Source: an uncultured Verrucomicrobiota bacterium
GTDB taxonomy: Bacteria; Verrucomicrobiota; Verrucomicrobiia; Limisphaerales; UBA1319
DNA: 64,000 nt
Direction of reading: 5' to 3'
Assembly: GCA_903845125.1 (NCBI GenBank)
Contig: CAIMWS010000463.1
Span: 1 to 64,000, forward strand
A model generated the notes under the pieces. The model was not told where the DNA came from and made no database searches. It worked only from the letters and a program-made list of their open reading frames with translations. Below are positions 5,107-39,920 of this stretch, piece after piece; positions within the stretch are counted from its first letter, which is position 1; every line of letters starts with the position of its first letter. A program made the position numbers and the translations under genes.

Positions 5107-5137
5107 CCGCCCATTATTCATAGCATACCATGGGCGG
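5107..5137. promoter_or_regulatory. Inverted repeat (possible operator)
   Basis: CCGCCCAT (5107-5114) / ATGGGCGG (5130-5137), perfect 8-bp arms, 15-nt spacer, in the divergent intergenic region; overlaps a minus-strand TTTACA-18-TATGAA promoter candidate (5117-5146). Confidence 0.35.
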
Positions 5138-5267
5138 GACTGTAAACGAAAAATCCAACCGCAAAAGCCCGTTGGGAATTCCCTGCCCCCCGACGCCGGG
5201 GGCGATTTTAGCGCCCACCCGAGGGGCAAACCTTGACAGGGCGGGCCGGGGATTTCATTGTGGAAAC

Positions 5268-6785
5268 ATGACCAAGATCCAATTCGTTTTCCTGGGCTGG
5301 CTGGTGGCGCTGGCGGGCCAGGCAGCGGAGCCGTTGAGCGGCCGGCGGCCCAACATCGTGTTCATCCTCAGCGACGACCAAGGCTACGGCGACTTCTCCT
5401 GCCACGGGAATCCGGTCCTGAAAACGCCGAACCTGGATCGGATCCACAACGAGAGCGTGCGGTTCACGGATTTCCACGTGAGCCCGACCTGCGCGCCGAC
5501 GCGCAGCGCCTTGCTATCCGGCCGGCACGAGTTCAAGAACGGCGTCACGCACACCATCTTCGAGCGCGAGCGGATGAGCCTGAAGTCCACCACCATCGCG
5601 CAGGTGCTCCGCCAGACGGGCTATACCACGGGGATCTTCGGCAAGTGGCACCTGGGGGACGAAGCGGAATACCAGCCGGGCCGGCGCGGCTTTGACGAGG
5701 TGTTCATCCACGGCGGCGGCGGCATCGGGCAAACCTATCCCGGGTCTTGCGGCGATGCGCCGGGCAACCGCTACCTGGACCCCGCCATCCTGCACAACGG
5801 CCGGTTTGAAAAGACCAAGGGCTATTGCACGGACGTGTTTTTCGCCCAGGCGATGAAATGGATCGGGTCGGTGAAGGACCGCCAGCGGTTTTTCTGCTAC
5901 CTCCCGATGAATGTGCCGCATGCCCCTTTGCAGGTGCCGCCCGGCTATGAGCAGCTTTATGCGGGCCAAACCACGCCGCTGGCCGCGCAGTTCTTCGGCA
6001 TGCTGGCCAACCTGGACGACAACGTGGGACGCCTGCTGGCCCGGCTGCGGGAGTGGAACCTGGAGCGCGACACGCTGGTGATCGTGATGAACGACAACGG
6101 CGGCACCGTGGGCTGCCCGATTTGGAACGCCGGCATGCGGGGGGCCAAAGGCTCGCCGTGGGAAGGGGGCACACGCGCGGCATCGTTCTGGCGGTGGCCG
6201 GGGGTGCTCGAGCCGGGCGTGGTGGACCAACTGGCCGCGCACATCGATTTCTTCCCCACCCTGGCGGAACTGGCCGGAGCGCAGCTGCCGGCGGAACTGG
6301 CCGCCAGCCTGGATGGACGCAGCCTGGCGCCGTTATTGCAGGATCCCAAAGCCGGGTGGCCGGAGCGCTATCTCATCACGCATGTGGGGCGGTGGGCCCG
6401 GGGCCAGGCGGCGGCAGCGAAGTATGCGCACTGCCGCATCCGCAACAGCCGTTACAGCCTGGTGAGCGATGCCCGGGATGGCGCCAGGAAGTGGGAATTA
6501 TTCGACCTCAAGAGCGACTACGGCGAACAAACCGATCTCGCCGCGCAGCGGCCGGAGGTGGTGAAAGAATTCGACGCCGCCTACAGCCAATGGTGGGACG
6601 CGGTCCAGCCGCTGCTGGTGAACGAAAATCTCAACGGCCCCAAGGTGAACCCCTTCAAGGAACTTTATTGGAAACAGTTCGGAGGCGGCCCCACGGCGGC
6701 GGAGCTGCGGGAGATGGACCCCAGCCGCACCGATCTCGGCGGCGCCCCCAAAGCGAAGGCCAAAGCGAAGGCCGGCGGTTCGTAG
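5268..6785 (+). CDS. Sulfatase (arylsulfatase family), signal peptide
   Basis: PNIVFILSDDQGYGDFSCHG, CAPTRSALLSGR (Cys-type formylglycine motif), GIFGKWHLGD. ORF open from 5130; start chosen before the signal-like MTKIQFVFLGWLVALAGQA. Confidence 0.93.
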   Translation: MTKIQFVFLGWLVALAGQAAEPLSGRRPNIVFILSDDQGYGDFSCHGNPVLKTPNLDRIHNESVRFTDFHVSPTCAPTRSALLSGRHEFKNGVTHTIFERERMSLKSTTIAQVLRQTGYTTGIFGKWHLGDEAEYQPGRRGFDEVFIHGGGGIGQTYPGSCGDAPGNRYLDPAILHNGRFEKTKGYCTDVFFAQAMKWIGSVKDRQRFFCYLPMNVPHAPLQVPPGYEQLYAGQTTPLAAQFFGMLANLDDNVGRLLARLREWNLERDTLVIVMNDNGGTVGCPIWNAGMRGAKGSPWEGGTRAASFWRWPGVLEPGVVDQLAAHIDFFPTLAELAGAQLPAELAASLDGRSLAPLLQDPKAGWPERYLITHVGRWARGQAAAAKYAHCRIRNSRYSLVSDARDGARKWELFDLKSDYGEQTDLAAQRPEVVKEFDAAYSQWWDAVQPLLVNENLNGPKVNPFKELYWKQFGGGPTAAELREMDPSRTDLGGAPKAKAKAKAGGS

Positions 6786-6819
6786 TCCCTGGCAGCCACT
6801 CCCGAACCTCCGACCCGTT

Positions 6820-8322
6820 ATGAACCAAAACCCAGCCGGCCGGCCCAACGCATGGGGTGGACTCGTGAAGCTTTTCGCCCTGGCAGGCACCTTGATGGCC
6901 AGCCTCCTCCATGGCGCCGCGCCGGCCACCCCCGCCCGGCCCAATATCGTATTCATCCTATGCGATGACCTGGGCATTAACGATCTGCACTGTTACGGCC
7001 GCCCGGACCATCATACCCCCAACCTGGACCGGCTGGCCGGCCAGGGGATGCGCTTCACCGCCGCCTATTGCGCCCAGCCCATCTGCTCGCCATCCCGGGC
7101 CGCCATCCTCACCGGCAAGGCGCCCGCCCGCCTGCACTTGACCACCTATTTGCCGGGGCGTCCGGATTGCGCCGCGCAGAAGGTGCTGCATCCGGAAATC
7201 CAGATGCAATTGCCGCTCACCGAGAAGCTGCTGCCCCGGTATTTCAAGGCGGCTGGCTACGTGACGGCCGCCATCGGCAAATGGCACGTGGGCGGCAACG
7301 GTTTCGGGCCGCTGGAGCATGGGTTTGACCTGTATCATCCCGGCCAGGCCAATACGAGGCCTTCCGCCACCGAGGGGGGCAAGGGCGAATACGATTTGAC
7401 CGCCTGCGCGGAGCGCTTTATGGAGACCAACCGGAACCGGCCGTTCCTGATCTACCTGGCGCACAACGCCCCGCATATCCCCTACGACGCCCAGCCCACG
7501 CGCATCGCCGGCAATACCCAGGCCTTCGAACCGGTCTATGCCGCGGTGATCGAAACCATCGATGACACCGTGGGGCGGCTGCTGGCCAGGCTGGAGGCCC
7601 TGCAGCTGGCGGAAAACACCATCGTCATCTTCACCTCGGACAATGGCGGCTTGCACGTGCCCGAGGGGTCCCATGCCCGGATCACGCACAACACTCCCTA
7701 CCGGGCCGGGAAAGGATTCGTCTATGAGGGCGGTTTGCGGATCCCCCTCTTGGTCCGCTGGCCGGGCCGGGTGCCGGCCGGGAAAGTGGTGGACACGCCG
7801 GTGATCAACACCGACTGGGTGCCCACGCTTTTGGAAATGGCCGGGATGCCCCAACCGGCCGGCCTGGACGGAGTGAGCCAGGCGCCGTTGCTGCAAGGGC
7901 GGGGTTCCGCGGCCCAGCGCAGCTTGGGCTGGCATTTCCCGCACTACACCAACCAGGGAAGCCGTCCCAGCGGCGCCCTGCGGGAGGGGAACTGGATGCT
8001 CGTGGAGTATTACGACACGGAAACCGCCGAGCTCTACGACCTGGCCGCCGATCCAGCCGAGGCGCAAAATGTGGCGTTGGCCCATCCCGACCGGGTGGTG
8101 AAGATGCGCGCGGCGCTGGCCGCCTGGCGCGAGGCGAACAGCGCGCAAACCAACCGTCCCAATCCCGGTTTTAATCCTGACCGCTACCGGGAGCTTTACG
8201 AGGAGGTTGATGCCAGCCGGTTTGACCCGCTGGGGGCCAGCCGTGCAGTTTGGGAAAAAATGTGGGCATGGCGCCAGCGGATGAACACCGCGGTGCAGGC
8301 GGGCGCCAAAGGCCGGAAATAA
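6820..8322 (+). CDS. Sulfatase
   Basis: PNIVFILCDDLGINDLHCYG, CSPSRAAILTGK, AAIGKWHVG, IVIFTSDNGG. Confidence 0.93.
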   Translation: MNQNPAGRPNAWGGLVKLFALAGTLMASLLHGAAPATPARPNIVFILCDDLGINDLHCYGRPDHHTPNLDRLAGQGMRFTAAYCAQPICSPSRAAILTGKAPARLHLTTYLPGRPDCAAQKVLHPEIQMQLPLTEKLLPRYFKAAGYVTAAIGKWHVGGNGFGPLEHGFDLYHPGQANTRPSATEGGKGEYDLTACAERFMETNRNRPFLIYLAHNAPHIPYDAQPTRIAGNTQAFEPVYAAVIETIDDTVGRLLARLEALQLAENTIVIFTSDNGGLHVPEGSHARITHNTPYRAGKGFVYEGGLRIPLLVRWPGRVPAGKVVDTPVINTDWVPTLLEMAGMPQPAGLDGVSQAPLLQGRGSAAQRSLGWHFPHYTNQGSRPSGALREGNWMLVEYYDTETAELYDLAADPAEAQNVALAHPDRVVKMRAALAAWREANSAQTNRPNPGFNPDRYRELYEEVDASRFDPLGASRAVWEKMWAWRQRMNTAVQAGAKGRK

Positions 8323-8360
8323 GCGGCGGCCGGAGTTAATCCTGAATCTGAAAGGCAGAC

Positions 8361-9797
8361 ATGAAAAATCGTTTTACCTGGTGGTGGCTGGCGGCGTGGT
8401 GGATCGCCCCCCTGGCTGGCGCCGCGGCGCCGGCCCGCCAGCCGAACATCCTGCACATCCATGCCGACGACCATCGCGCCGATGGCCTGCAGGCGCTGGG
8501 CAACCCGGTGCTGAAAACGCCCAACCTCGATACGCTGGTGGAGCGTGGCCTGACGTTCACCCGGTGCTACACCCAGGGCTCGATGGTGGGCGCGGTGTGC
8601 CTGCCCAGCCGCACCATGCTGCTCACCGGGCGCTCCTGGCTGCGCCTCGAGACGCCCGCGCAGGCAAAAGCCTCGGGGTATGCCCGGGCGGCCTCCTACC
8701 TGCCCAAAGTGCTCGGCGCCGCGGGCTACGAAACCTGGCACATGGGCAAAAGCGGAAATGAATTCGGCCCCGCGATCCAGGCGTTCCACACGAACCTCGT
8801 CGACGACGCGCGGGGCATCGCAGAGGGCCCGGACAGCCGGTCGGGAGCCGGCCGGCGGCTGGCGGATGCCGCCATCGATTTCCTGAAACGGCGCCCGGCG
8901 GACCGCCCGTTCTATATGTATCTGGCCCCGCCAGTGCCGCACGATCCCCGCCTGGCGGAGCCGGAGTTCAGCAAGCTATACCAACCGGAGCGCATCCCGC
9001 TGCCGGCCGCTTTCCTGCCGGTGCATCCCTGGGACAACGGTGAAATGACGGTGCGCGACGAACAGCTCGCCCCATGGCCCCGCACGCCGGAAAACACCCG
9101 GCGGCAAATCGCCGACTACTATGCCTGCATTTCGGCACTCGACCATCATCTCGGCCGGATTTTCGCCCAGCTCAAGGCGGCGGGAGAATTCGAGCGCACG
9201 ATCATCATTTTCACCGGCGACAACGGGCTATCCCTCGGCGAGCACGGATTGTTCGGCAAACAGAACCTCTACGAGTTTGGCGGCATGCATGTCCCGCTGG
9301 TCCTCGTTGGCCCGGGCATTCCCCAAGGTCGGAGCCAGGCGCTGGTTTACCTGATGGATTTGTACCCCACCTTCTGCGAGCTGGCTGGGGCGGCGATCCC
9401 GCCGCCGGTGGAGGGCAAAAGCCTCCTGCCGGTCATCCAGGGCCGGGAGCCCAAAGTGCGCGAGGCGCTTTACACCGCCTACCGGGACTGCCAGCGGGCC
9501 GTCCGCGACGACCGTTGGAAGCTCATCCGCTACCCGCTGGTGGACAAAACACAACTCTTCGACCTCACGGCCGATCCGCATGAGCTGGCGAACCTGGCGG
9601 AGCAGCCCGGGCACGCGGCCACCCTGGCCCGGATGACCCGGTTGCTCGAGCAGGAGATGGCGAGGTATGGCGATACCGCACCGCTGAAGACGGCCCAGCC
9701 CAAACCTGCCGAATGGAAGCCCCCGGTGCCCGGCGGAAAAACCGCACCCAAGGCTAAAACCAAGACCAAGGCGAAGGCCAGCCAGGCAGGGTCGTGA
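8361..9797 (+). CDS. Sulfatase
   Basis: PNILHIHADDHRADGLQALGNP, CLPSRTMLLTGR, HMGKSGNEFG, IIIFTGDNGLSLGEHGLFGKQNLYE. Confidence 0.92.
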   Translation: MKNRFTWWWLAAWWIAPLAGAAAPARQPNILHIHADDHRADGLQALGNPVLKTPNLDTLVERGLTFTRCYTQGSMVGAVCLPSRTMLLTGRSWLRLETPAQAKASGYARAASYLPKVLGAAGYETWHMGKSGNEFGPAIQAFHTNLVDDARGIAEGPDSRSGAGRRLADAAIDFLKRRPADRPFYMYLAPPVPHDPRLAEPEFSKLYQPERIPLPAAFLPVHPWDNGEMTVRDEQLAPWPRTPENTRRQIADYYACISALDHHLGRIFAQLKAAGEFERTIIIFTGDNGLSLGEHGLFGKQNLYEFGGMHVPLVLVGPGIPQGRSQALVYLMDLYPTFCELAGAAIPPPVEGKSLLPVIQGREPKVREALYTAYRDCQRAVRDDRWKLIRYPLVDKTQLFDLTADPHELANLAEQPGHAATLARMTRLLEQEMARYGDTAPLKTAQPKPAEWKPPVPGGKTAPKAKTKTKAKASQAGS

Positions 9798-9815: not shown

Positions 9816-11477
9816 ATGAGCATTGATCGCGGCCAGGTCACCCGTTTTATCCTCCTGCTGCTGGTTTATGGCACCGGGCAAACCGCGGCGGAAGTTGCCT
9901 CCCCGGGCCCGGAGGCCCCAGCGCTCTCCCGCCCGGATGCCGGCCGGAAAGCCAGCGGCCGCGAGTTTTGGGTGGCGGATTACGGCGCCAAAGGGGACGG
10001 CCGCCAGCTCGACACCACCGCCCTACAAAGCGCCATCGATGACTGCGCGGAGCGCGGGGGTGGGACGGTGATCGTGCCCAAGGGGGACTATCCCACCGGT
10101 GGCTTGGTGCTGAAGGACCACGTGATCCTGCACCTCTCAGCGGGGGCCAGAGTTCTGGGCACCGGCCAGCCGCAGGACTATCGGAAACATGGCTGCCTCC
10201 TTTATGCCAGCGAGGCGAAAAACATCGGGCTGAGCGGCCCCGGAATCATCGATGGGCGGGGCGCCGGGGTGCGCCAGAACCGGTATTTGATCGCGTGCTT
10301 CCGCAACTGCCGGCAAATCTCGCTGGCCGGGGTGACCCTCAAGGACTCCGCCGCCTGGGGTGTTCACCTGATCGAGTGTGACCAGGTCCGGGTGGATGGC
10401 ATCCGGATCGACAGCGTGGTCAACGCCAATAATGACGGCCTGGATTTGGATGGCTGCCAGAACGTCTTCATTTCGAATTGCCATTTCCGCTGCGGCGATG
10501 ACGCCATCGCGTTAAAAACCAACCGCCGGGTGCCGTGCAAAAACATCACCATCGCGAACTGCGTGTTATCCAGCCGCTGGGCGGCGTTTCGTTTCGGACC
10601 GGAATCGCGGGGGAATTTCGAAAACATCGCGGTTTCAAACTGCACCATTGAGGATACCTTCGGGTGCGGCATCAAGCTGCAGATGGCCGAAGGGGCGCAA
10701 ATGAAGAACATCCTGTTCGCCAACCTGGTCATGGACAACGTCACCGGCCCCATATCCCTGCGGCTGGGCAATTGGGTTTCCGGCATCCTGGCGCGCGATG
10801 GGAATGCCGGCCGCGCCATTGGAACCTTCCAGGATGTGCGTTTCAGCAACATCCGCGCCCGGGTGGCCGCCAACGCGCAAACGGAGCGCTACAGTTCCAC
10901 GGTCTTCAACGCGGGCACCCCCTTCCCCGGCGAGGAAAAATCGTGCATCTCGATCACCGGTCTGCCCGGCCATCCCATCACGGGAATTTCCCTGAGCGAC
11001 ATCCACATCACCTTCCCCGGCGGGGGGACGGCTGCCGAAGCCGCCCGCCGGGAAGTGCCGGACCTGCCGGATACCTATCCCGAATATTTCATGTTTGGCG
11101 TGCTGCCCGCCTACGGTCTCTATGCCCACCACGTGAAAGGCCTGGTGCTGAACCACGTCCAGTTCGACCTGGCGGCCCCCGACCTGCGCCCCGCGATCGT
11201 GACGGACGATGCCGAGGATCTCACCTTGGCGGACTGCCAGGCCCAAGGGGACCGCAGCGCCGGATGCCTGGTGCGTCTGCAGCAAACCCGCCAGGCATTT
11301 GTCCACGGCCTCCGGGCGCTCAACGAGGTGGGGACCCTGGTGAGGGTGGAGGGGCGGGATACACAAGCCATCGGCCTCACGGGCAACGATGGCCGCCGCG
11401 CCGACCGGCTCGTGGAATTGGGGGACGGCGTGGACAAAGCCAAAATCGATTGGGGCGCCAACTTGGGGAGGCACTGA
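9816..11477 (+). CDS. GH28-like (polygalacturonase-type) right-handed beta-helix protein
   Basis: ADYGAKGDGRQLDTTALQSAIDDCAERGGGTVIVPKGDY, NNDGLDLDGCQNVFISNCHFRCGDDAIALKT; RBS-like GGAGG upstream. Confidence 0.85.
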   Translation: MSIDRGQVTRFILLLLVYGTGQTAAEVASPGPEAPALSRPDAGRKASGREFWVADYGAKGDGRQLDTTALQSAIDDCAERGGGTVIVPKGDYPTGGLVLKDHVILHLSAGARVLGTGQPQDYRKHGCLLYASEAKNIGLSGPGIIDGRGAGVRQNRYLIACFRNCRQISLAGVTLKDSAAWGVHLIECDQVRVDGIRIDSVVNANNDGLDLDGCQNVFISNCHFRCGDDAIALKTNRRVPCKNITIANCVLSSRWAAFRFGPESRGNFENIAVSNCTIEDTFGCGIKLQMAEGAQMKNILFANLVMDNVTGPISLRLGNWVSGILARDGNAGRAIGTFQDVRFSNIRARVAANAQTERYSSTVFNAGTPFPGEEKSCISITGLPGHPITGISLSDIHITFPGGGTAAEAARREVPDLPDTYPEYFMFGVLPAYGLYAHHVKGLVLNHVQFDLAAPDLRPAIVTDDAEDLTLADCQAQGDRSAGCLVRLQQTRQAFVHGLRALNEVGTLVRVEGRDTQAIGLTGNDGRRADRLVELGDGVDKAKIDWGANLGRH

Positions 11478-13699: not shown

Positions 13700-13731
13700 T
13701 TATGCAAACCCCAAACCAGCGGAGTGATTTT

Positions 13732-15729
13732 ATGAAAAACCAGATTGCCGTTCTCAGTGCCTGGCTCGCCTGCACCACGATGGGGGTCCCCGGGGACGCG
13801 CCGGTTCCCGCGCCCGTTCCCTACGGCCCGGTGCCCTCCGCGCGCCAGCTCCAATGGCACGAGCTGGAGCTTTACGGCATGGTGAACTTTTCCACCATCA
13901 CCTACTATGGCAAGGAATGGGGCTACGGGGACGAAGATCCCGCCCGGTTCGACCCCCGGGAGTTCGACGCCCGGCAGATTGTGCGGGCCGCCCGCGCCGG
14001 GGGCTTGCGGGGATTGATCATCGACGCCAAACACCACGGCGGCTTTTGCCTGTGGCCCTCGAAATACACCAGCTACTCGGTGCAGCGCAGCCCGTGGCGG
14101 AAGGGCCAGGGCGATATGGTGAAAGAGCTGGCGGAAGCCTGCCGCGCGGAGGGGCTCCAGGTGGCCATCTACCTTTCCCCCTGGGACCGGAACCACCCGG
14201 CTTACGGCCGGCCCGAATACGTCACCTATTTCCGCAACCAACTGACCGAGTTGCTCAGCGGGTACGGGCCGGTTTTCGCGGTCTGGTTCGATGGCGCCAA
14301 TGGCGGTGACGGTTATTACGGCGGCGCCCGGGAAACGCGCAACATTAGCCGCCGAACCTACTACGATTTCCCGGACATCATCCGCACCATCGTCCACCGA
14401 CTCCAACCCGGCGCCTGCGTCTTCTCGGACCTGGGCCCCGACATCCGCTGGAACGGCTCGGAAACGGGCATTTCCGGGGATCCCTGCTGGGCCACCTTCA
14501 CCCCCAAATACCGGGCGACCCACGAAGAGGTGCGCCTCAATCCGGAAACGGGATATTTCTACGAGATGCCCGTAGGCGACAGCAATTACGACGAAGCCCC
14601 CAACGGCCACCGCCACGGCAAAATGTGGCTGCCGGCCGAGGCCGATTTCCCACTGCGGGGGGGGTGGTTCTGGCAGCCGGGCGACCGGCCCAAAACCCCC
14701 GCGCACCTGGTGAATCTTTACTTTGCTTCCGTGGGCCGCAACAGCGCGCTGGATGTCGGCCTCGCTCCCGATCGCCGGGGCCTCATTTGCGACGAGGACG
14801 CCGCGGCGCTGGCGGAGTTTGGCCGCCGCCTGCGGGATATCTTCGGCACCGATCTGGCCCAAGGCGCCCAGGCCTCCGCCAGCCAGGTCCGGGGCGGCGA
14901 CCCGCGATATGCGGCGGCCAATGTCCTGGCCGGCGAAAAAGGCCGGTATTGGGCCACCGACGATGCCGTGACGGCCGCCGAACTCACGCTCGATTTTGGC
15001 CGGCCGGTTGAATTCAGTGTGGTGAGTTTGCGCGAGCAGATCACCCTGGGCCACCGCGTCGATGAATGGGCCTTGGACGCGGCGGTGGACGGCGGGTGGC
15101 GGGAATTCGCCTCCGGCACGGCCATCGGCGCGCGGCGCCTGTGGCGGGGCCAGCCGATCACCAGCGCCAAGCTCCGGCTGCGCATCACCCAAGCGGCGGC
15201 CTGCCCGGCCATCGCCGGGGTGGCCGTCCACCTGGAGCCCGCCTACAGCCGCGCAGAAGCGGGGAACGCGCTGGCGGCCCGCCGGGAGCCAGGACTCTCC
15301 CGGGAGGGCTGGAAAATCATTTCGGCCAGCTGCGAGGCGCCCCCCGGCGGCGCGGCCGCCAACGCCATCGACGGCCAGCCCAACACCTTCTGGCACACCC
15401 ATACCGAGGCGGGCCGCCAACCGCCCCCGCAGGAGATCGTGGTGGATACCGGCCAAGTGCGGGAAATAGCCGGTTTTCTTTACCTGCCGCGCCAGGATGC
15501 CTGCACGGTGGGCAACGTGGCCGAATACGCGTTTTACCTGAGCGAAAACGGGAGGGATTGGGGCGCTCCCGCGGCGCGGGGCGAGTTCGGAAACATCAAG
15601 GCCAATCCCATTCAGCAGAAGGTGATGTTCGCCAAACCGGTCCCGGGCCGTTTCTTCAAATTCGTGGCGCTCCGCAGCGCGGATGCCCCGTGCATCAATG
15701 TCGCGGAATTGGGCCTCGTCGGAAAATGA
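13732..15729 (+). CDS. Alpha-L-fucosidase, GH29-like, with C-terminal discoidin/F5-8-like module
   Basis: WHELELYGMVNFSTITYYGKEWGYG, GLIIDAKHHGGFCLWPSKYT, YLSPWDRNHPAYG, FAVWFDGANG (nucleophile Asp region); C-terminal ...NAIDGQPNTFWHTH... typical of F5/8-type modules. Confidence 0.87.
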   Translation: MKNQIAVLSAWLACTTMGVPGDAPVPAPVPYGPVPSARQLQWHELELYGMVNFSTITYYGKEWGYGDEDPARFDPREFDARQIVRAARAGGLRGLIIDAKHHGGFCLWPSKYTSYSVQRSPWRKGQGDMVKELAEACRAEGLQVAIYLSPWDRNHPAYGRPEYVTYFRNQLTELLSGYGPVFAVWFDGANGGDGYYGGARETRNISRRTYYDFPDIIRTIVHRLQPGACVFSDLGPDIRWNGSETGISGDPCWATFTPKYRATHEEVRLNPETGYFYEMPVGDSNYDEAPNGHRHGKMWLPAEADFPLRGGWFWQPGDRPKTPAHLVNLYFASVGRNSALDVGLAPDRRGLICDEDAAALAEFGRRLRDIFGTDLAQGAQASASQVRGGDPRYAAANVLAGEKGRYWATDDAVTAAELTLDFGRPVEFSVVSLREQITLGHRVDEWALDAAVDGGWREFASGTAIGARRLWRGQPITSAKLRLRITQAAACPAIAGVAVHLEPAYSRAEAGNALAARREPGLSREGWKIISASCEAPPGGAAANAIDGQPNTFWHTHTEAGRQPPPQEIVVDTGQVREIAGFLYLPRQDACTVGNVAEYAFYLSENGRDWGAPAARGEFGNIKANPIQQKVMFAKPVPGRFFKFVALRSADAPCINVAELGLVGK

Positions 15730-21398: not shown

Positions 21399-21541
21399 AA
21401 ATTCGGCAGAGGAGGCATGCTGGACCATGCCTTTTGGCCCCGCAAGCCATTTCGACAAAGCCATTTCGACAAACAACCACGGGGTCACGCCGGGAATCGC
21501 CGGCTGGCCCCGATGGAATCCAGTGGGTCCCCCAGCATTAT

Positions 21542-21795: not shown

Positions 21796-24700
21796 TCAAG
21801 GCCGGGTTTGTTTCAGGAAGAAATCGACCAGGGCGCGGTTATGGAAAAACTCCGGGCAGACCTCATGCCCTTTGCCGGGGATGATGATCAATTGCATGTC
21901 GCCGCCCAGGGCCTGGTAGCGCCGCGCCAGCTCGCCGCTGTTGCGCTCCAGGGGCACCACGGTGTCCGAATCGCCATGCAGGTGGAGGATCGGGACGCGG
22001 GCTTTGGCCAGCGGCCCCAAGCGGCCGATGGGATTGTGCTGGTCCAGGCATTGGGCCAGCTCCGCCGCGCCCAGCCCGTAAGCCGGGCTGGAGTGGCTCA
22101 AGCCGGGCCAGCTGGATTGGTCGCACACGGTGTAGATGCCGCCGACGCACTGCACCAGGTCCGGGTGTTCGGCCGCCCAGTTGTAGAGCATCAGCCCGCC
22201 GCGGCTTTGCGGCAGCAGGCACGCTTTGGGGGAGAGCCCGTAGCGCTGGACGACGGTGCGGTGGTACTCCGTGAACACCGCGCGCCCCGCCGGATTCCCG
22301 TAGGACTCGCCCACATCCACGCCGCCGATGGCGAAGCCATTGGTCAACCACTGGTCGAACATCCAGGTGTGGCTCGGATCGGGAAGCCCGCCGCCGGGCT
22401 GGACAAAGGTGGGGGCATACCACACCCAGGGCCGGGGGCCGGCCGCCGGTTCCCGGCGCGGCAACAAGATGAAGCCGCGGTTCTTTTGGGTTCCGACCAG
22501 GAAATCTTCACGGGTGGTTCCGTATTGGGTCGAGATGGCAACTTGCGCCACATAGCGTTTGCGGGGAGCCTGGCACTCGTGGAACCGCCGGATCATTTCG
22601 GCGAGCAGTTCGGGGTGCCTGGCCGCCATATCGGCGGGGCCGGTGTTGTCCCCCCAGCCATTGGAAAGGCCCTGCGGCAGACCCCATTCCACGGCGTTCG
22701 TGCGGTTATAAGCCCGCTGGCGGGTGATGGGTTCCCAGGCGCAGCTCCACAGGCTGTTGCGGTAGTTCGGGAACAGCCCGCCGGCCCAGCGTCCGGGGTC
22801 GGCGCCGCTGTCCTGGTAGGTGCCGTGCGCCACCAAGGCGCTGGGCGGTGTGTTACCCGGCAGCCCGTAGGTGGGGTCGCCCTGGATGTCGGAAGTGAGA
22901 AACACCAGCCGGCCGGCGCTCTGGGTTTGGGCCAGTTGGGCCAGTTGGGCCACGAGCGTCATCATCGCCCGGTCCGCGTAAGCGGGCTGGTCCGGCCGGG
23001 TGGCCGAGATCCACTCGCGGCGGATGTAGAAAGATTCATCGAGCACAAAGCCGTCGGTCTCTTCGCCCACCTCGCGGAGGAGGGCGCGCAGGTAATCCAG
23101 GTAATGGGCGCGCACGGCCGGATGAGCCGGATCCTGGTAGCGGTTGTCGCCCAGCGTGTCCGGCCCCTTCCAACAGGGAAACTGGGTGCGGCCGCCGCCA
23201 TCCACATACACCCGCCGCGGGTCGAATCCGGGCGCCTTATCGTCAGCCAGAACGCCATCGGCGAAATAGAGCAAGGGATGGAAACCCCGTTCGCGGGCGT
23301 AGCGCAGCCGTTGCCGCAGATCCTCCGGGGTCATCGGTTTATTCCGAGTTTGCGGGAACGGAATCCATTGGCGGGCCAGGGCGCCGGTGGCTTCGTCGAA
23401 GGCGTAGCGGCCCAGGTAATCGTACCAGCCATGGAGGCAGAGGGCGACTTTCGCGCGGTCCGCCCGGTCCGGCAAGCGCCGGGCCAATTCGTCGATGTCA
23501 CGGAACCAGCCCTGGCCATCCTGGCTCAAGTAGTCGTAGTAAACCAGGCGGACGCCATGCACCCAGGCCGGGGCGGGTTTGAGCTCCGGCACGGTGGCGT
23601 AAAACGCGGCGAAGGGCGCATCCAAACGGTTCGGGTGGGCCGCCAGGGCCAGGGTGCGCCGCTCCTCGCGCAGGGGGACACGGGCGCCCAGGTAGGTGGT
23701 GGAGGCTTCGATCCGCAACCGCCCGGGTTCGGCATGGCGCCAGCGGAAGGCCACGCCGCAGAAGGGATCGAGCGCCAGGCCGATGGTGGCGCCTTTTTTC
23801 GTGAGGAGCCCGATGGCGGGCAGGGCCAGCTCAGTGCCGGCTTGGGGGCCGGCCGCTCCCTGGCCGAGCACGTAGCGGGCAGGCCACGCCGTGGGATGGT
23901 CCAGGGCCACCTGCCGCACCACCCCGTCCAAACCGGGCAGGATCGCCGCCACCACGGAGTCCTGGTCGATTTCCACCGCGGCGGTCACGGTAACGTTGCT
24001 CCGGCAAGGCTCCGCAAACGCCAGGGTCCAGGTGCGAACCAGTGCCTTCCCTTCCGGCGCTTCCGTGGCCAAGGGGCCGAGATCGCCCGGCGGCGTGGCC
24101 TGAACCTGGCTTTCGAGGGTGCCGCCCCCGGCATCCACCGCCGGCTCCGGCAGGCTGAAGCGCAAGCCGCCCACCTCGCCGGCCACGGCGACGGGGGTGA
24201 TGGGGACCTTGCAGAAGGTGAGGGCGGCGAGGCCGTTGGCGCCATAAAGCAGGTTGTTCACATCCCAGCGCTGGCTGTCCAGGTAGGTGATTTTTCCGGC
24301 TGATCCGGCGCCCGCCAGCTTGAGCGTGATGACGTTATCCCGGGCCGATCCGGAAAGCACCTTGGCCTGGCCACCATCCAGGTAAAACTGGCTCACCAGG
24401 GAATCGTGCCAGGCCATGGGCTGGTCGAACTCCAGCGCCAATTCGTCCTTCTGAAGGCTGGTGAACCGGGCCTGCCGGAGATTGGCGGCGGTGATGGGGC
24501 CGGGGAAAACCTTGTGGTAAAGGTCCCGTTCCAGGAGGGGGCAGATCAACCGCGCGATCTCCGCGTAGCCGGCGGGGGGATAGTGGCAACCGCCGGGCGG
24601 TTTGATCCCCAAGGTGGACATCACATCCAGGTGGGAGAAACAGGCAGGCAGGGTCCGCTGCACTTCGCGCAGTTGGTTGTCGGAGCCGTTCACCCCCATG

Positions 24701-27156
24701 GAGCAGGCCTTGGGCCAGATCTGGAAGACGTAGTAGTGCTGGATATTGGGGTAGTCCTGTTTCCAGGCGGCCGCCAGGTCGATGAAGTAATCCCGGTAGG
24801 TCTCCCAGCCGAAACCGCCCGTGGGGCCATCGGCGCCCTGGTCGTTTTCGCCCTGATGCCACAGCACGGCGCGGATGCCGTGGGTCAGCCCGGCCCGCCG
24901 CACCCGCCAGAGCAGCCGGCCATAAATCGTGGAGACATCCTCGGGATTGGCCGGGTTCCGCTGGTGCTGATCGATCCGCGTGCCGCCCACGGCGCCATTG
25001 AGGATGCAAATGGGGATCTGCTGGTTTTCCAAAAGGCGGCGGGCCAGTTCCAGCCCCCAATAGCCCACCTGGGCCTGGCCGCCCTGGCGGCTGCGGCAGA
25101 CCGCGTTACCCCAGTAATCGAGCCGGGCGCCCTCGGGATGGCCGGCGGGGCTGCCGAAACTGCGGATCCAATCGCTGGTGTAGGGCGGGTCCGTGGGGCC
25201 TACATCCGTGGCCTCCGCATTGGATTGGCCGTTGATGATATAGGCGTCCCCGCAGACCAGGTTGGTGGCCGTATGCAGCACGGTTTCGCGGTGGCCGCTT
25301 TGCGTCCCCATTTCGGCCCGGTATTTGATGAGTCCCGGCTGAAGGCGGGCAGCCAGGGCGTAGCTCCGGTCCGCGGCCGGGGGCAGACTTTCATCGTGAA
25401 CCAATTGATCCCCGGCATAAACCCGCAGGAAGACCTTGTCCGCGGCGGCGGCCAGGGTTCCCCGATAATGGAGCCAGCCTTCGTTCCGGTCGTCGCGGGC
25501 GAAGAACTGGTTATCCTGCGGTGTTTCCTCGCGGCCGGGAGGCTGGGGCACCCACGGGTCGGTGGCCGGCTCGGTGACCTTGATGGCGGCGGATTGGATG
25601 GTGGCGGCCCCGCCATTGTCCACGGCCAGCGTGATGGCGAGGGTGCCGCTGTTCTGGGCCCGTTCCAGAAGGAGTTTGCCGGGAGCGATCTCCTTGATGA
25701 CCGCCGGCCCCGCCTGATTCCAATGGTAATGCAGGACGCCGGCGCCCTTGGCCTGCATCTCAGCCAGGTTGGCCACCACCGGCACCACCACGAGGCTCCG
25801 CCGCCCGTCCCATTGGGCCGGCGCGGGAAGGGTGAAGACTGGTTCCTGGATGTCTTCCTTGATGGTGACCGGGATATCCAGGGTTTTGATGCCATCCGGG
25901 TAAACCGCCCGGAATTGCAGATGGAAGGATTGGTCTCCCGTCACCCGTCCGGCGTCCAGTTTGAACCTCAAACGGTCCACCGCGGCCACGGTTTCGCGGC
26001 AATTCCGCTGGAGGATCCAAAAGGTTTTCAGGGCACCGCCAGCCTGCGCGGAGATCTCCGCGCTCCGGCCTTCCAACAGGCTGAGCTTCGGCGTGGAGAC
26101 AGACAAAGCGTTCCCCGGCGGCACCACCAGCCCCACCAGGGTCTGCAGCGGCTTTTGGTTCTCATACTCGAGCTTGATCCAGGCGGCGGAGCGGGCCACC
26201 CGGGAAATGCGCGCCTCGTCGATGTCCCCTACGAAATCGTAGTGGTGGTACCAGCCGCCGATCCACAGGCGGGCCGGGCTCCTGATGTTCAACGGGGCGC
26301 CCCGGTTTTTCGAGGTGCCATCCAAGACGCCATTCACGTAGATCCGGGCCTCGCCTTGATGAAAGGTGTGGGCCACATGCGTCCACTCCCCCAGGGGGAC
26401 GGCGCTACTGCCCGCCACGTTTCCCGCGGAGAAATAACAATCCATTTCGGCATGGGGCGGACTGCGGAAATTCATCACCACCTTGCCTTGCCCTTGTTCA
26501 TTGCCCCAGCCCAAAACCCGGCCGTTGGGCTTTTCCGGGCGGAACCACACCTCCGAGGTATGGGAACTGCCGCCGGCGGGCAAGCTGGTAATTTTTTCCC
26601 CGCCGAATATCCCCTGGCCGCCGGCCAGGTGGCGGGCCGGCCCGATCACCCCCACCGTGGCGGTCGTGCCGTCATCCCGGGCAGGGATGGTGCCCACGGC
26701 ATCCTGCACCGGAGCATTCATGTGCCACACGCTCGCATAGCCATTGGCCTCGTTGAACACCGCCCCGCCGTTGGATTCACTGGTGGCCCCCGCCTTGCCC
26801 CAGTGCATGGATATTTCCTGGCGGGCGTTGCCCTGGATGACCGGAATGCGCACCCAGAAGCTGGCGGTGCCTTCGGCTGGGTCCCATTCCTCGACCTGGA
26901 AGGCCAAGGGCTGGCCGCCGCTGGAAAAGCGGATGTCCTCGCCGTGGGCGCCGGCTTCGCTGAAATTGAAAAAGTCGCGGTGCAGCCGCACGAGCAGGGG
27001 GAAGTCTTTTTCCCGGGCCTCGGCCGGCAGGTCCGCCCCGGCGGGCGTGGTCAGGAGGTGGAGGGAGCCGGAGTGTTGCCAGCCGGGGTATTGGGCCCGG
27101 GCGGTTGGCAGCCAGGCCGCCAGCAACAGGAGAGCGGGGAGCATGGGTTTGGTCAT
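21796..27156 (-). CDS. Multi-catalytic secreted protein: DUF2341/LamG + SASA-type sialate O-acetylesterase + glycosidase-like barrel + alpha/beta hydrolase
   Basis: Signal MLPALLLLAAWLPTARA; DUF2341-like FPLLVRLHRDFFNF; LamG GEWTHVAHTFHQGEARIYVNGVLDG; SASA CGDAYIINGQSNAEATD, ILNGAVGGTRID, VLWHQGENDQG; barrel region LCLHGWYDYLGRYAF...GFHPLLYFADG...GFVLDESFYIRREW; C-terminal hydrolase LLPQSRGGLMLYNWA, PILHLHGDSDTVVPLE, IIIPGKGHEVCPEFF. In-frame start at 27213 possible. Confidence 0.85.
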   Translation of the reverse strand: MTKPMLPALLLLAAWLPTARAQYPGWQHSGSLHLLTTPAGADLPAEAREKDFPLLVRLHRDFFNFSEAGAHGEDIRFSSGGQPLAFQVEEWDPAEGTASFWVRIPVIQGNARQEISMHWGKAGATSESNGGAVFNEANGYASVWHMNAPVQDAVGTIPARDDGTTATVGVIGPARHLAGGQGIFGGEKITSLPAGGSSHTSEVWFRPEKPNGRVLGWGNEQGQGKVVMNFRSPPHAEMDCYFSAGNVAGSSAVPLGEWTHVAHTFHQGEARIYVNGVLDGTSKNRGAPLNIRSPARLWIGGWYHHYDFVGDIDEARISRVARSAAWIKLEYENQKPLQTLVGLVVPPGNALSVSTPKLSLLEGRSAEISAQAGGALKTFWILQRNCRETVAAVDRLRFKLDAGRVTGDQSFHLQFRAVYPDGIKTLDIPVTIKEDIQEPVFTLPAPAQWDGRRSLVVVPVVANLAEMQAKGAGVLHYHWNQAGPAVIKEIAPGKLLLERAQNSGTLAITLAVDNGGAATIQSAAIKVTEPATDPWVPQPPGREETPQDNQFFARDDRNEGWLHYRGTLAAAADKVFLRVYAGDQLVHDESLPPAADRSYALAARLQPGLIKYRAEMGTQSGHRETVLHTATNLVCGDAYIINGQSNAEATDVGPTDPPYTSDWIRSFGSPAGHPEGARLDYWGNAVCRSRQGGQAQVGYWGLELARRLLENQQIPICILNGAVGGTRIDQHQRNPANPEDVSTIYGRLLWRVRRAGLTHGIRAVLWHQGENDQGADGPTGGFGWETYRDYFIDLAAAWKQDYPNIQHYYVFQIWPKACSMGVNGSDNQLREVQRTLPACFSHLDVMSTLGIKPPGGCHYPPAGYAEIARLICPLLERDLYHKVFPGPITAANLRQARFTSLQKDELALEFDQPMAWHDSLVSQFYLDGGQAKVLSGSARDNVITLKLAGAGSAGKITYLDSQRWDVNNLLYGANGLAALTFCKVPITPVAVAGEVGGLRFSLPEPAVDAGGGTLESQVQATPPGDLGPLATEAPEGKALVRTWTLAFAEPCRSNVTVTAAVEIDQDSVVAAILPGLDGVVRQVALDHPTAWPARYVLGQGAAGPQAGTELALPAIGLLTKKGATIGLALDPFCGVAFRWRHAEPGRLRIEASTTYLGARVPLREERRTLALAAHPNRLDAPFAAFYATVPELKPAPAWVHGVRLVYYDYLSQDGQGWFRDIDELARRLPDRADRAKVALCLHGWYDYLGRYAFDEATGALARQWIPFPQTRNKPMTPEDLRQRLRYARERGFHPLLYFADGVLADDKAPGFDPRRVYVDGGGRTQFPCWKGPDTLGDNRYQDPAHPAVRAHYLDYLRALLREVGEETDGFVLDESFYIRREWISATRPDQPAYADRAMMTLVAQLAQLAQTQSAGRLVFLTSDIQGDPTYGLPGNTPPSALVAHGTYQDSGADPGRWAGGLFPNYRNSLWSCAWEPITRQRAYNRTNAVEWGLPQGLSNGWGDNTGPADMAARHPELLAEMIRRFHECQAPRKRYVAQVAISTQYGTTREDFLVGTQKNRGFILLPRREPAAGPRPWVWYAPTFVQPGGGLPDPSHTWMFDQWLTNGFAIGGVDVGESYGNPAGRAVFTEYHRTVVQRYGLSPKACLLPQSRGGLMLYNWAAEHPDLVQCVGGIYTVCDQSSWPGLSHSSPAYGLGAAELAQCLDQHNPIGRLGPLAKARVPILHLHGDSDTVVPLERNSGELARRYQALGGDMQLIIIPGKGHEVCPEFFHNRALVDFFLKQTRP

Positions 27157-27231: not shown

Positions 27232-28053
27232 CTACTTCCTGCGGGTGGAGCGCTCCATCATCCAAAACATGTCCTGGTTGTTGGGTGAGGAAACATTCAG
27301 GTCCAGCTTCTGCCCTTTTTTCAACAAGGGCATGGTCCTGGCATCCCGCCATTTTTTGATTTCCGAATGGCCGTCCGCGAACGAAAGCCCGCCCGCCCCG
27401 CCATGGTAGCTGGCAGGGTAATCCACGATCCGCCATTGGGTCGGCTGGTCCGGATACCCGGTCATGCCGATCACCATTTCCCCATCGTTGATGCTGTCCT
27501 CCCGCTCATCGAGGAACACCCAGGTGCGGGCGGGACCGGGGTTGAAAACATCGCTCATTTTATAGTAAATGCGGAACCCCGAGCCGAACCCATCCACATC
27601 GGTCGAGTTGAACCACGCATTCATGGCGATGCTGCGCACCCGGGGGTAAACCTTGCCGCTGACCGTCACCGAACTGCGGTCCGCCGGGCATTTCCAGATA
27701 TCCGCGTTTTTACCGCAATAGGTCCAGAGGAGGCTGCGGGCCAAGTCCTGCTTGACGTCCCAGTTGCTGGTATTGGCGCTGAAATCCAGATCCCCGTTGA
27801 CCCACTGGTTGGGACCGAAGGACTGGGGCACCTTGTCCTGGTTGTCGTCCACGTACATGCGCCAGGCGTGCATCATCTGGCGTCCGCTGCCGAGGCATTT
27901 CACCCCCTGGGCCTTGAGCTTGGATTTGGATAGCGCCGGCAGCAGCATGCTCGCCAGGATGGCGATGATGGCGATGACTACCAGCAGTTCGATCAGGGTG
28001 AAACCTGGAGTGTGCCTCCCCCGCCTGGGCATTGGAAAGTTGCGTTGGTGCAT
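27232..28053 (-). CDS. Prepilin-type N-terminal cleavage/methylation protein with H-X9-DG motif
   Basis: GFTLIELLVVIAIIAILASMLLPALSKSK; YHGGAGGLSFADGHSEIKKW (H + 9 residues + DG). Confidence 0.92.
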   Translation of the reverse strand: MHQRNFPMPRRGRHTPGFTLIELLVVIAIIAILASMLLPALSKSKLKAQGVKCLGSGRQMMHAWRMYVDDNQDKVPQSFGPNQWVNGDLDFSANTSNWDVKQDLARSLLWTYCGKNADIWKCPADRSSVTVSGKVYPRVRSIAMNAWFNSTDVDGFGSGFRIYYKMSDVFNPGPARTWVFLDEREDSINDGEMVIGMTGYPDQPTQWRIVDYPASYHGGAGGLSFADGHSEIKKWRDARTMPLLKKGQKLDLNVSSPNNQDMFWMMERSTRRK

Positions 28054-28065
28054 ATGATCTGAATC

Positions 28066-28093
28066 AACATAACTTTTTGCCTTTCCGATGCAA
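28066..28093 (-). promoter_or_regulatory. Candidate promoter of the pseudopilin gene
   Basis: Minus strand TTGCAT (28093-28088), 16-nt spacer, TATGTT (28071-28066); start codon at 28053. Confidence 0.3.
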
Positions 28094-28228
28094 GCCCAGA
28101 TGCGATCAGGGTGCGGAGCTCGAGGCCACCGCCGCGAGGGCCGGGCCGCCGGTGATCCGGACCTGGTTTTGCGCAGGGCGCCAACCGGCGTGGCCCGGCT
28201 TTCCCCCCAGGCCAACCTGTAGGAAGAA

Positions 28229-28250
28229 GGCTCCGTAACCAAACGGAGCC
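28229..28250 (-). terminator. Terminator-like hairpin downstream of the MFS gene
   Basis: GGCTCCGT-AACCAA-ACGGAGCC perfect 8-bp stem directly after the stop at 28258; downstream minus strand is CTTCTTCCT (weakly U-rich). Confidence 0.6.
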
Positions 28251-28257
28251 GGGATCA

Positions 28258-30048
28258 TCAGTGGCCCCCAGGGGACTTCACGGACTGCATCGACTCGACG
28301 CCACTGAGCCGGGGCCAAAAGTAGCCGTAGAAGGCCACAAAGGCGAAGCAGAACATGGGCACGATGAAGCCGCGCGACATATCATACTGGTCCGCCACGT
28401 AGCCCATCAGCTTGGGCAGGATGGCGCCGCCCATGATGGCCATGACGATATAAGCGGAGGCCTTTTTGGCGCGAACCCCGAGGCCGTGGATGCCGAGGGC
28501 AAAAATGGTGGGGAACATGATGGACATGAAGAAATAGCTCAGGAATACGCAGGCCACCGACAACCAGCCCGCCTTGCAGAATATCACCAGGCAGGTAAGG
28601 ACGTTCATAACGCCATACAGGCCCAGAATCTTGTGGGCGGAAAGCTTCCGCAACAGCCCAGCGCCGGTGATGCGCCCGATCAGGAAGCAGAAGAAACCAA
28701 CCGAAGCCAGGAAGGAAGCGCCCTTGTCACTGATGGTGAGGGAAGCATCATTAAAGGCAATTTCCTTCGGAAAGGCATCCTGCAGGAGGTGGCGGTTGAT
28801 CTGGGCCAGGCTCACTTCTTCTTTTTTTGCCTTCGCGGCCAGCAATTGCCTGGTTTTCCCGCTCAAAGCGACCCCGCTGAACCGTTGTTCATCATAGAGC
28901 AACTGTTCGGCTTTCACCCGGGTTGGATCCTGCTTGACCAGCTTGTTGAGGTCTTGCATCAGGGCCAATTGCAGCGGCTTGGGATTGGCGGTGGCAGGGG
29001 AATAGTCCGCCAGCAAGGTGGCGGTTTCGCTGGATAACTGGCCGTTGATGAACGTGGAGACCGCGTCCGTCTTTTGTTTCAGTTTGGTGGCGAAGGCGGG
29101 AAAATCCAGGAGGTCTTTGGGGACCAGGCTCGTCTGCACTTCGATATATTTTTTCGTGGAGCCGGCATTCCAATCGGGGGGAATGGACGGAACCTCCGAG
29201 GTCATGTAATTGATGAAAAAGCTGAAGATGCCAGCCTGCGCGGCGACGTAGAGGAACTGGGCGAGCACGGCCATGGAAAAGTGGGGGTGTTTCCAGATGG
29301 AGTGGGAGGCGCTGGCCTGGTCGTCATCGAGGTGATAATCATCCTCGGTTTTCACGTCCGGGATATAGGCAAAATAGAAAGCCACCGCCAGCACGCAAAC
29401 CACCACCCCCACGATAACGTAAGGGATATAAAGCGTCTCGCTGCCGATGCTGCGCCCCGTGATGGGATCCTTGGCATAGAAGAACTGGCCGCCAATGATC
29501 GGGCCGAAGATCCAGCCAATGCCGTTGCAGGACTGCGCCAGGTTGATGCGCGTGGCGGCGAAACGCGAAGGGCCCAGTACCGTCGTATAGGGATTGGCAA
29601 TCGTTTCCAGGAAGGTCAAGCCGGCGGCTATGGCACAAACTCCGAAAAGATAGGCGACAAATGCCGTGTTCGGCGACACGGTTCCAGCGTGGACCAGCGC
29701 ATTGATCTTCGTGGCCGGGATAAACCAAAAGCCACCGACGGCCACCAGGAGCAAGCCGGAGATGAGCCCCCCTTTGTAGCCCAGCCGTATCGCCAGCCAA
29801 CCCGCGGGCAGGGCCATCAGGAAATATCCCAGATAGTGCGCAAACTGCACCCAGGCGGACTGCGATTTGCTGAGGTTCAATTCGTCCTGGAAGTGCTTGT
29901 CCATCACGTCAATCATCCCGTTGCAGACACCCCAGAGCAGGAACAGCGAACTGACGAGAATAAACGTGATCACCACGTTCCTTCCATCGTTCATCACGAA
30001 CATGCTTTGCTTTTCGGTGGCGGGAACTGTTTTTACGTTCTGGCTCAT
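28258..30048 (-). CDS. MFS sugar permease, FucP (L-fucose:H+ symporter)-like, with large hydrophilic insertion
   Basis: FILVSSLFLLWGVCNGMIDVMDKHFQDELNLSKSQSAWVQFAHYLGYFLMALPAGWLAIRLGYKGG, GLTFLETIANPYTTVLGP; MSQNVKT start. Confidence 0.88.
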   Translation of the reverse strand: MSQNVKTVPATEKQSMFVMNDGRNVVITFILVSSLFLLWGVCNGMIDVMDKHFQDELNLSKSQSAWVQFAHYLGYFLMALPAGWLAIRLGYKGGLISGLLLVAVGGFWFIPATKINALVHAGTVSPNTAFVAYLFGVCAIAAGLTFLETIANPYTTVLGPSRFAATRINLAQSCNGIGWIFGPIIGGQFFYAKDPITGRSIGSETLYIPYVIVGVVVCVLAVAFYFAYIPDVKTEDDYHLDDDQASASHSIWKHPHFSMAVLAQFLYVAAQAGIFSFFINYMTSEVPSIPPDWNAGSTKKYIEVQTSLVPKDLLDFPAFATKLKQKTDAVSTFINGQLSSETATLLADYSPATANPKPLQLALMQDLNKLVKQDPTRVKAEQLLYDEQRFSGVALSGKTRQLLAAKAKKEEVSLAQINRHLLQDAFPKEIAFNDASLTISDKGASFLASVGFFCFLIGRITGAGLLRKLSAHKILGLYGVMNVLTCLVIFCKAGWLSVACVFLSYFFMSIMFPTIFALGIHGLGVRAKKASAYIVMAIMGGAILPKLMGYVADQYDMSRGFIVPMFCFAFVAFYGYFWPRLSGVESMQSVKSPGGH

Positions 30049-30384
30049 AGGTTGATTAGGAATTTGACTGTGAATTGAATCCAACGGGAGATAAATAGCC
30101 AAGCGGCCGGCCATGAATTACAACCGCACCGGATTCCGCGGAGTGCACAACAACCCGAATGCAATCAATGCCCACCAGGGCGAGCCTGGCTCCCCCGGTG
30201 GCGAATATGGGATGCAATGTCATATTGTTGTGGCCGAACTTGGTAAAGGATTCCGCTCCGCCAGTCAAGTATCAATGCCCGGGGAAAGGCTTCGGACCGG
30301 GCTGGATCGGCCATCTCCAATCCATTGCGCCCGTGCAGGTTAAGAATCCAACCGCCTTTTTTCCGAGGCGCTGGTTTTAAAGAA

Positions 30385-39670: not shown

Positions 39671-39920
39671 ATTTTGGATTCGCTCCCGGGATATTGGCGA
39701 CCTGGGCAAGCGCCGTCCAGCCTGAATCCAGCGCAAGAGCCTGAATCGAGGCGAACCACGATTAATCCGGGCGTAATTCCGATGGGGCCAAGCCATGGCA
39801 ATGACTTTCAACCACGGCGCGGCCAAACGAAACAAGCGCACCCCGAACCGGCCGGTTTTCCCTGAAGGCCACTGAAAACCAAATGGTGGAGAAACCGATT
39901 AGGCTGCCTTATTTGGAGGC

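Follow-up and report, generated by a model that had tools for sequence, protein, structure and literature searches.

A secreted three-module protein with two serine hydrolases around a glycosidase-like barrel in an uncultured Verrucomicrobiota bacterium

How should a single bacterial frame that appears to encode two hydrolases with a glycosidase-like barrel between them be read: as one enzyme, as separate genes joined by assembly, or as independent activities that share a signal peptide? We consider this question for a frame on the minus strand of a 64,000-nucleotide contig segment from an uncultured Verrucomicrobiota bacterium, the whole of which is hereafter called the window.

The reading frame and its junctions

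The frame comprises 1,786 codons from ATG to stop with no interruption (Table 1). It opens with a typical signal peptide, MTKPMLPALLLLAAWLPTARA, followed by QYPGW, a mature start that the paralogs of the protein share. Three modules lie end to end with no linkers between them: A (aa 1-990), B (about aa 991-1540), and C (aa 1541-1786). The original prediction had proposed just such an uninterrupted frame from signal peptide to stop, with DUF2341/LamG, SASA, barrel and alpha/beta-hydrolase segments in a single polypeptide; both points are borne out, and the motifs it quoted are all present in the translation close to where it had placed them. GQSN occupies aa 643-646 and PQSRGG aa 1649-1654, with WHQGEND beginning at aa 766, DGFVLDES at aa 1368, HGDSDT at aa 1727, and GKGHE at aa 1761. 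Pfam models for DUF2341, Laminin_G_3, and SASA score above their curated cutoffs on the ORF; a search of NCBIfam returned no match above cutoff for any module.

Long ORFs of 919 and 838 aa also lie on the strand opposite the gene; these are a by-product of high GC. For the fusion frame itself, every module has homologs, with identities of 53-63% over about 980 aa for A, 41-46% for B, and up to 70% for C, which excludes a chance frame, and base composition does not account for its openness. GC3 is 0.81-0.86 in every module and even across them. Promoter-like sites in the region of the gene did not rise above those of shuffled sequence.

Table 1. Features of the fusion gene and selected neighbors, in window coordinates
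Feature	Residues	Coordinates	Strand	Evidence
Whole ORF, fused A-B-C secreted protein	1,786 aa	21796..27156	(-)	frame, Pfam, homolog search
Signal peptide	1-21	27094..27156	(-)	sequence
DUF2341	72-135	26752..26943	(-)	Pfam PF10102, 54.3 bits, cutoff 23.4
LamG-like lectin domain (Laminin_G_3), putative carbohydrate binding	195-328	26173..26574	(-)	Pfam PF13385, 77.3 bits, cutoff 27.6
SASA (SGNH) acetylesterase domain	about 636-880	24517..25251	(-)	Pfam, conservation
Module B N-terminal beta-sandwich	about 991-1195	23572..24186	(-)	alignment, AF2 model
Module B glycosidase-like barrel	1196-1540	22537..23571	(-)	alignment, AF2, Foldseek, conservation
Module C alpha/beta hydrolase	1541-1786	21799..22536	(-)	alignment, model, triad conservation
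FucP-like MFS sugar symporter, two genes upstream of fusion		28258..30114	(-)	TIGR00885, 254.7 bits, below equivalog cutoff 280.4
GH29 alpha-L-fucosidase-like protein with F5/8 type C domains		13702..15729	(+)	context
Three consecutive sulfatases		5130..9797	(+)	context
GH28 family protein, nearest model rhamnogalacturonidase BT4146		9816..11477	(+)	context

Module A (aa 1-989) occurs twice more in the same genome. One copy (L002, 57% identity) stands alone in a 1,006-aa frame; the other (L003, 55% identity) lies in a 1,531-aa frame, where a GH29 alpha-L-fucosidase and its C-terminal domain follow. L003 shares with the fusion an identical module A layout and a glycosidase directly after SASA but has GH29 and the fucosidase C-terminal domain in place of B and C.

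Homologs that are split into separate ORFs are what the original prediction had named as a sign of assembly-joined genes, and the source genome is a 561-contig draft. The homologs are indeed split: relatives on bacterial contigs match aa 998-1540 only (L008-L011) or about aa 1536-1786 only (L007, L012-L015). However, the two in-frame junctions fall at the ends of mature proteins. Separate B proteins (L009, L010, and L011), each with a signal peptide of its own, end in ...RYLAP or ...RYLTP exactly where B meets C in the window. Separate C proteins (L012 and L013) likewise have their own signal peptide, which in L012 is followed by an STQYG segment; the C module of the window begins AISTQYG. At the other junction, module A of L002 ends within a few residues of the start of B. 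Both inner signal peptides, that of B and that of C, are absent from the fusion, and neither module has a further close copy in the genome that could have been mis-joined (best other C, 40%; best other B, 28%). A random join would not be expected to remove two signal peptides, stay in frame at both junctions, and coincide with mature ends. Three mature proteins thus appear to have been joined head to tail without their inner signal peptides and, judging from these features of the sequence, the ORF is a genuine gene fusion of proteins that relatives secrete separately and not a misassembly. The evenness of GC3 and the paralog L003, in which A is fused to a different enzyme, argue in the same direction, the latter indicating that such fusions occur in the lineage. 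We therefore rejected the reading in which three neighboring genes were wrongly joined in a metagenome contig, to which we assign only a very slight chance.

The two hydrolase modules and the barrel

Module A is a DUF2341-LamG-SASA acetylesterase. The SASA profile PF03629 matches aa 701-800 with 41.3 bits (curated cutoff 24.8), compared with 48.4 bits in L002 and 48.6 in L003. Both the catalytic Ser645 (25222-25224, in GQSN) and His858 (24583-24585) are conserved in 22/22 homologs. The Asp of the DxxH motif, three residues before the catalytic His, is absent from the module A homologs, which have GGCH or similar at this site; only L091 among them has an Asp near the His, two residues before it. 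The active site may possibly work as a Ser-His dyad or with a distant Asp.

At the other end of the protein, Pfam alpha/beta-hydrolase models match aa 1628-1767 of module C below cutoff, and its predicted structure (pLDDT 82, pTM 0.83) is an alpha/beta hydrolase. The triad of Ser1651 (22204-22206), Asp1731 (21964-21966), and His1764 (21865-21867) is complete, each residue being kept in 37/37 sequences. Foldseek places S9 acylaminoacyl peptidases and carboxypeptidases at the top of the matches to the model (TMq 0.66-0.79), and several relatives of C exceed the Pfam Peptidase_S9 cutoff of 22.6 (L025, 36.8; L051, 30.0; L041, 27.5), the C module of the window not being among those listed. By its model, C lies nearer in fold to S9-type acyl hydrolases than to any named carbohydrate esterase. 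These matches also favor a reading in which C is an S9-type peptidase or general acyl hydrolase that acts on a peptide or another acyl group instead of a sugar ester. Against this, C has no beta-propeller domain, its profile matches include MHETase-like enzymes and acetyl xylan esterases (E 1e-5 to 9e-5), and members of its family recur in fusions with GH106, sulfatase, and SASA domains, so that we consider a role away from sugar esters unlikely. The two different esterases that the original prediction saw around the barrel stand as two different serine hydrolases; that C is an esterase we only infer, given its S9-like fold. In one relative (L015, 7890-8779) the C-module gene is split over two overlapping frames, reflecting a frameshift or sequencing error.

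Module B appears to consist of an N-terminal beta-sandwich and a (beta/alpha) barrel, as predicted in an AF2 model of low confidence built from five sequences (mean pLDDT 52.5, pTM 0.63), in which an N-terminal beta region precedes alternating strands and helices. The beta-sandwich starts later in the window than in separate B proteins, its first strands apparently being missing or replaced. The barrel matches no Pfam or NCBIfam model. Searched against the PDB with Foldseek, the model finds the GH36 FpGalactosaminidase (8x1b, E 4.6e-9), the GH129 enzyme ZgGH129 (5opq, 7.6e-9), and a GH31 cycloalternan-degrading enzyme (5i0g, E 2.3e-8), with further matches to MYORG (7qqf), GH129 NagBb, and GH101; the family numbers are in part those to which we take these entries to belong. 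Because TM-scores for the matches are low (0.25-0.39), they are read at the level of superfamily, which they may support, and not of family. The GH31/GH36/GH129/GH101 alpha-glycosidases have a beta-sandwich followed by a (beta/alpha)8 barrel and an Asp after a mid-barrel strand, an arrangement that B may share; the comparison with B is limited by 9-15% identity, low TM-scores, and no profile-level membership.

Sequence profiles give links that are weak but concordant. Those to GH31, GH13, and DUF6259 all lie at E 0.004-0.7, among them MYORG GH31 (E 0.34) and alpha-amylase (0.11); none reaches significance for a named GH family, the best PDB sequence matches having E 0.11-0.7. The DUF6259 profile (PF19773) shows no match to the B module of the window and matches distant B relatives weakly (E 0.004-0.02; L021, 16.6 bits and L055, 16.3 bits, curated cutoff 28.7), around the DETF region in L021, L055, and L056 and always below the cutoff. 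This DETF motif is found in a remote branch of the barrel family (L021, L023, and L055-L059), some members of which have twin-arginine-like or lipoprotein-like starts.

Asp1208, His1242, Asp1305, Asp1368, Asp1373, and Glu1374 are invariant in 13/13 B sequences, some near 22-28% identity, and Asp1423 is also invariant wherever the alignment covers it. In the predicted barrel, these acids and His1242 lie at the ends of strands or close to them. The Asp1373-Glu1374 pair (23035-23040 on the minus strand, in DGFVLDES) would place Asp1373 at the location of GH31/GH36-type nucleophiles. Asp1449 (22810-22812, in GTYQDS) is conserved only in the close B subfamily by automatic alignment; in the distant subfamily, GDH matches this site by hand alignment only. 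Asp1449 is our preferred candidate for the acid/base, with Asp1423 as an alternative candidate for the second carboxylate.

A glycosidase-like barrel, as first proposed, has thus gained conserved carboxylates and alpha-glycosidase fold matches, on a low-confidence model and with no named GH family, and B would seem to represent a glycosidase family not described before. It might instead have degenerated, or serve only to bind the glycan and offer it to both hydrolases, as the low-confidence model, the want of a characterized homolog, and an Asp1449 that the automatic alignment finds conserved in the close subfamily alone would allow. Yet six acidic residues and His1242 held invariant down to 22-28% identity would be unusual for a dead enzyme, and we judge a noncatalytic barrel improbable.

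Distribution and recombination of the modules

Among 146 related genomes, including that of the window, C was found in 109, full-length A (E = 0) in about 20, and B in 6. No second A-B-C trio was detected in 320 genomes of the order, 384 of the class, or 388 of the phylum, nor a second fused B among the 320 genomes of the order; the B profile, run over the phylum sample of 388 genomes, recovered the genome of the window and only one distant separate relative. The A-B-C combination therefore appears confined to the window, in these genome samples, and the fusion lacks conservation of its own.

Module C also occurs with other partners. The 29 C loci outside the genome of the window divide into 15 frames of a size expected for separate proteins (276-363 aa) and 14 longer fusions (595-1,256 aa). 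Eight of the 29 are SASA-C or C-SASA fusions, so the pairing of SASA with a C hydrolase is a recurrent theme in the order. Other loci join C to a GH106 rhamnosidase (L026, by Pfam; L030, by similarity to L026), to a sulfatase (L048, by Pfam; L042, by sequence), or to a 3-keto-disaccharide hydrolase (L025). With L007, a C plus GH106 protein from a different search than the 29 loci, the fusion of a C hydrolase to a GH106 alpha-L-rhamnosidase recurs in several genomes.

L010, from another MAG, carries B and C as distinct genes within a single run on the same strand, in the order B-DUF6807-C-DUF4185. A gene for a GH29-like protein follows B in L009, and a GDSL gene and then one for a GH95-like protein follow it in L011; these GH29-like and GH95-like neighbors point to fucosylated substrates.

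Genomic context and proposed role

Besides the enzymes in Table 1, the window encodes a GH2 plus GH51 protein and GH38, GH2, and GH51 proteins. In Verrucomicrobiota, GH29, sulfatase, and PF03629 genes co-occur at loci described as fucose-glycan systems, with fucP in the same genomes, and the phylum is reported to specialize in consuming fucose-rich sulfated glycans (PMC8857213).

Several further features of the window stand on their own. The FucP-like symporter matches FucP models in two stretches, on either side of an apparent long mid-protein insertion of some 150 residues. The gene immediately upstream of the fusion encodes a prepilin-type N-methylation protein (27232-28242, minus strand), with a terminator-like hairpin (28250-28229) between it and the symporter. 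Downstream on the same strand, a 1,861-aa protein (15903-21488) contains five lamin-tail domains, a CotH kinase-like domain and, below cutoff, a DUF1349-like region. A 1,413-aa frame at 35600-39841 (minus strand) with GH2 and then GH51-type alpha-L-arabinofuranosidase domains is a second multicatalytic candidate, and a plus-strand frame at 42424-46023 couples LamG with a region that scores 76 bits against PF18582, the hydrazine synthase alpha middle domain.

With regard to a multicatalytic CE-GH enzyme, A keeps its Ser and His, C its full triad, and B is probably a catalytic domain. We consider it probable that the fusion is a secreted multicatalytic polysaccharide-degrading enzyme that arose by genuine gene fusion and combines deacylation with glycoside cleavage on one glycan. 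Its most likely role is to deacylate an acetylated fucose-containing glycan and to cleave its alpha-glycosides, with several catalytic sites on one chain. The LamG domain would dock on the glycan and SASA would take off O-acetyl groups; the barrel would cut an alpha-linked sugar, galactose- or fucose-type residues fitting the fold and context, by a retaining mechanism, with Asp1373 as the nucleophile and the proton donated by an acid such as Asp1449. A second ester or acyl group would be taken off by module C. Fusion would in this way hold deacylation and cleavage together on a single molecule attached to one glycan that is acetylated, contains fucose, and is possibly sulfated. The ordered assembly line of the original prediction, in which deacylation precedes cleavage, is a hypothesis that goes beyond this.

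Three active enzymes could also share one signal peptide and mRNA with no ordered channel between them, acting independently or on different parts of the glycan. The free recombination of the modules with GH29, GH106, SASA, and sulfatase domains is consistent with such co-secretion, as are reports of no synergy for several fused enzymes, namely BeCE15A-Rex8A, FjCE6-CE1, and CkXyn10C-GE15A (PMC8417218). However, B and C in one gene run in L010 suggest a shared substrate, and intramolecular synergy has been demonstrated in one fused CE6-CE1 enzyme, BoCE6-CE1 (PMC7110780). On balance, fusion without cooperation seems somewhat unlikely.

The original prediction could match the architecture to no described enzyme. 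The trio is indeed seen only here among the sampled genomes, and a literature search for three-catalytic-domain CE/GH enzymes yielded none that looked relevant by title and abstract, but the literature already contains multicatalytic CE-CE and CE-GH enzymes (PMC7110780, PMC8417218, PMC8280721). The acetyl-feruloyl esterases BoCE6-CE1 and FjCE6-CE1 (PMC7110780) resemble the fusion in carrying two different serine hydrolases on one polypeptide, encoded in a polysaccharide utilization locus, with an N-terminal acetylesterase and a C-terminal alpha/beta-hydrolase esterase. They differ in having no glycosidase barrel, no DUF2341/LamG, and a xylan context; moreover, module C has an S9-like fold and no CE1 assignment. 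BeCE15A-Rex8A (PMC8417218) and CkXyn10C-GE15A (PMC8280721) likewise join a carbohydrate esterase to a glycoside hydrolase, the former with a very short linker and a very rare architecture, as in the fusion, but they have a single esterase, of CE15, and GH8 or GH10 barrels acting on xylan. In view of the CE6-CE1, CE15-GH8, and GH10-CE15 enzymes, the fusion belongs to a known type; its novelty lies in the combination of three parts, in the S9-like hydrolase as a partner, and in a barrel that has no family assignment. A bolder proposal, which we advance tentatively and at less than even odds, is that B founds an undescribed GH family related to GH31/GH36/GH129 and that the fusion is the only known chain with such a glycosidase between two different deacylases, stripping and cutting a doubly acylated fucose-containing glycan.

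A natural fusion of three enzymes suggests which activities share a substrate. This one ties an uncharacterized barrel family and an uncharacterized C hydrolase family, present in 109/146 sampled genomes, to deacylation-coupled glycan breakdown, and both families are readily testable.
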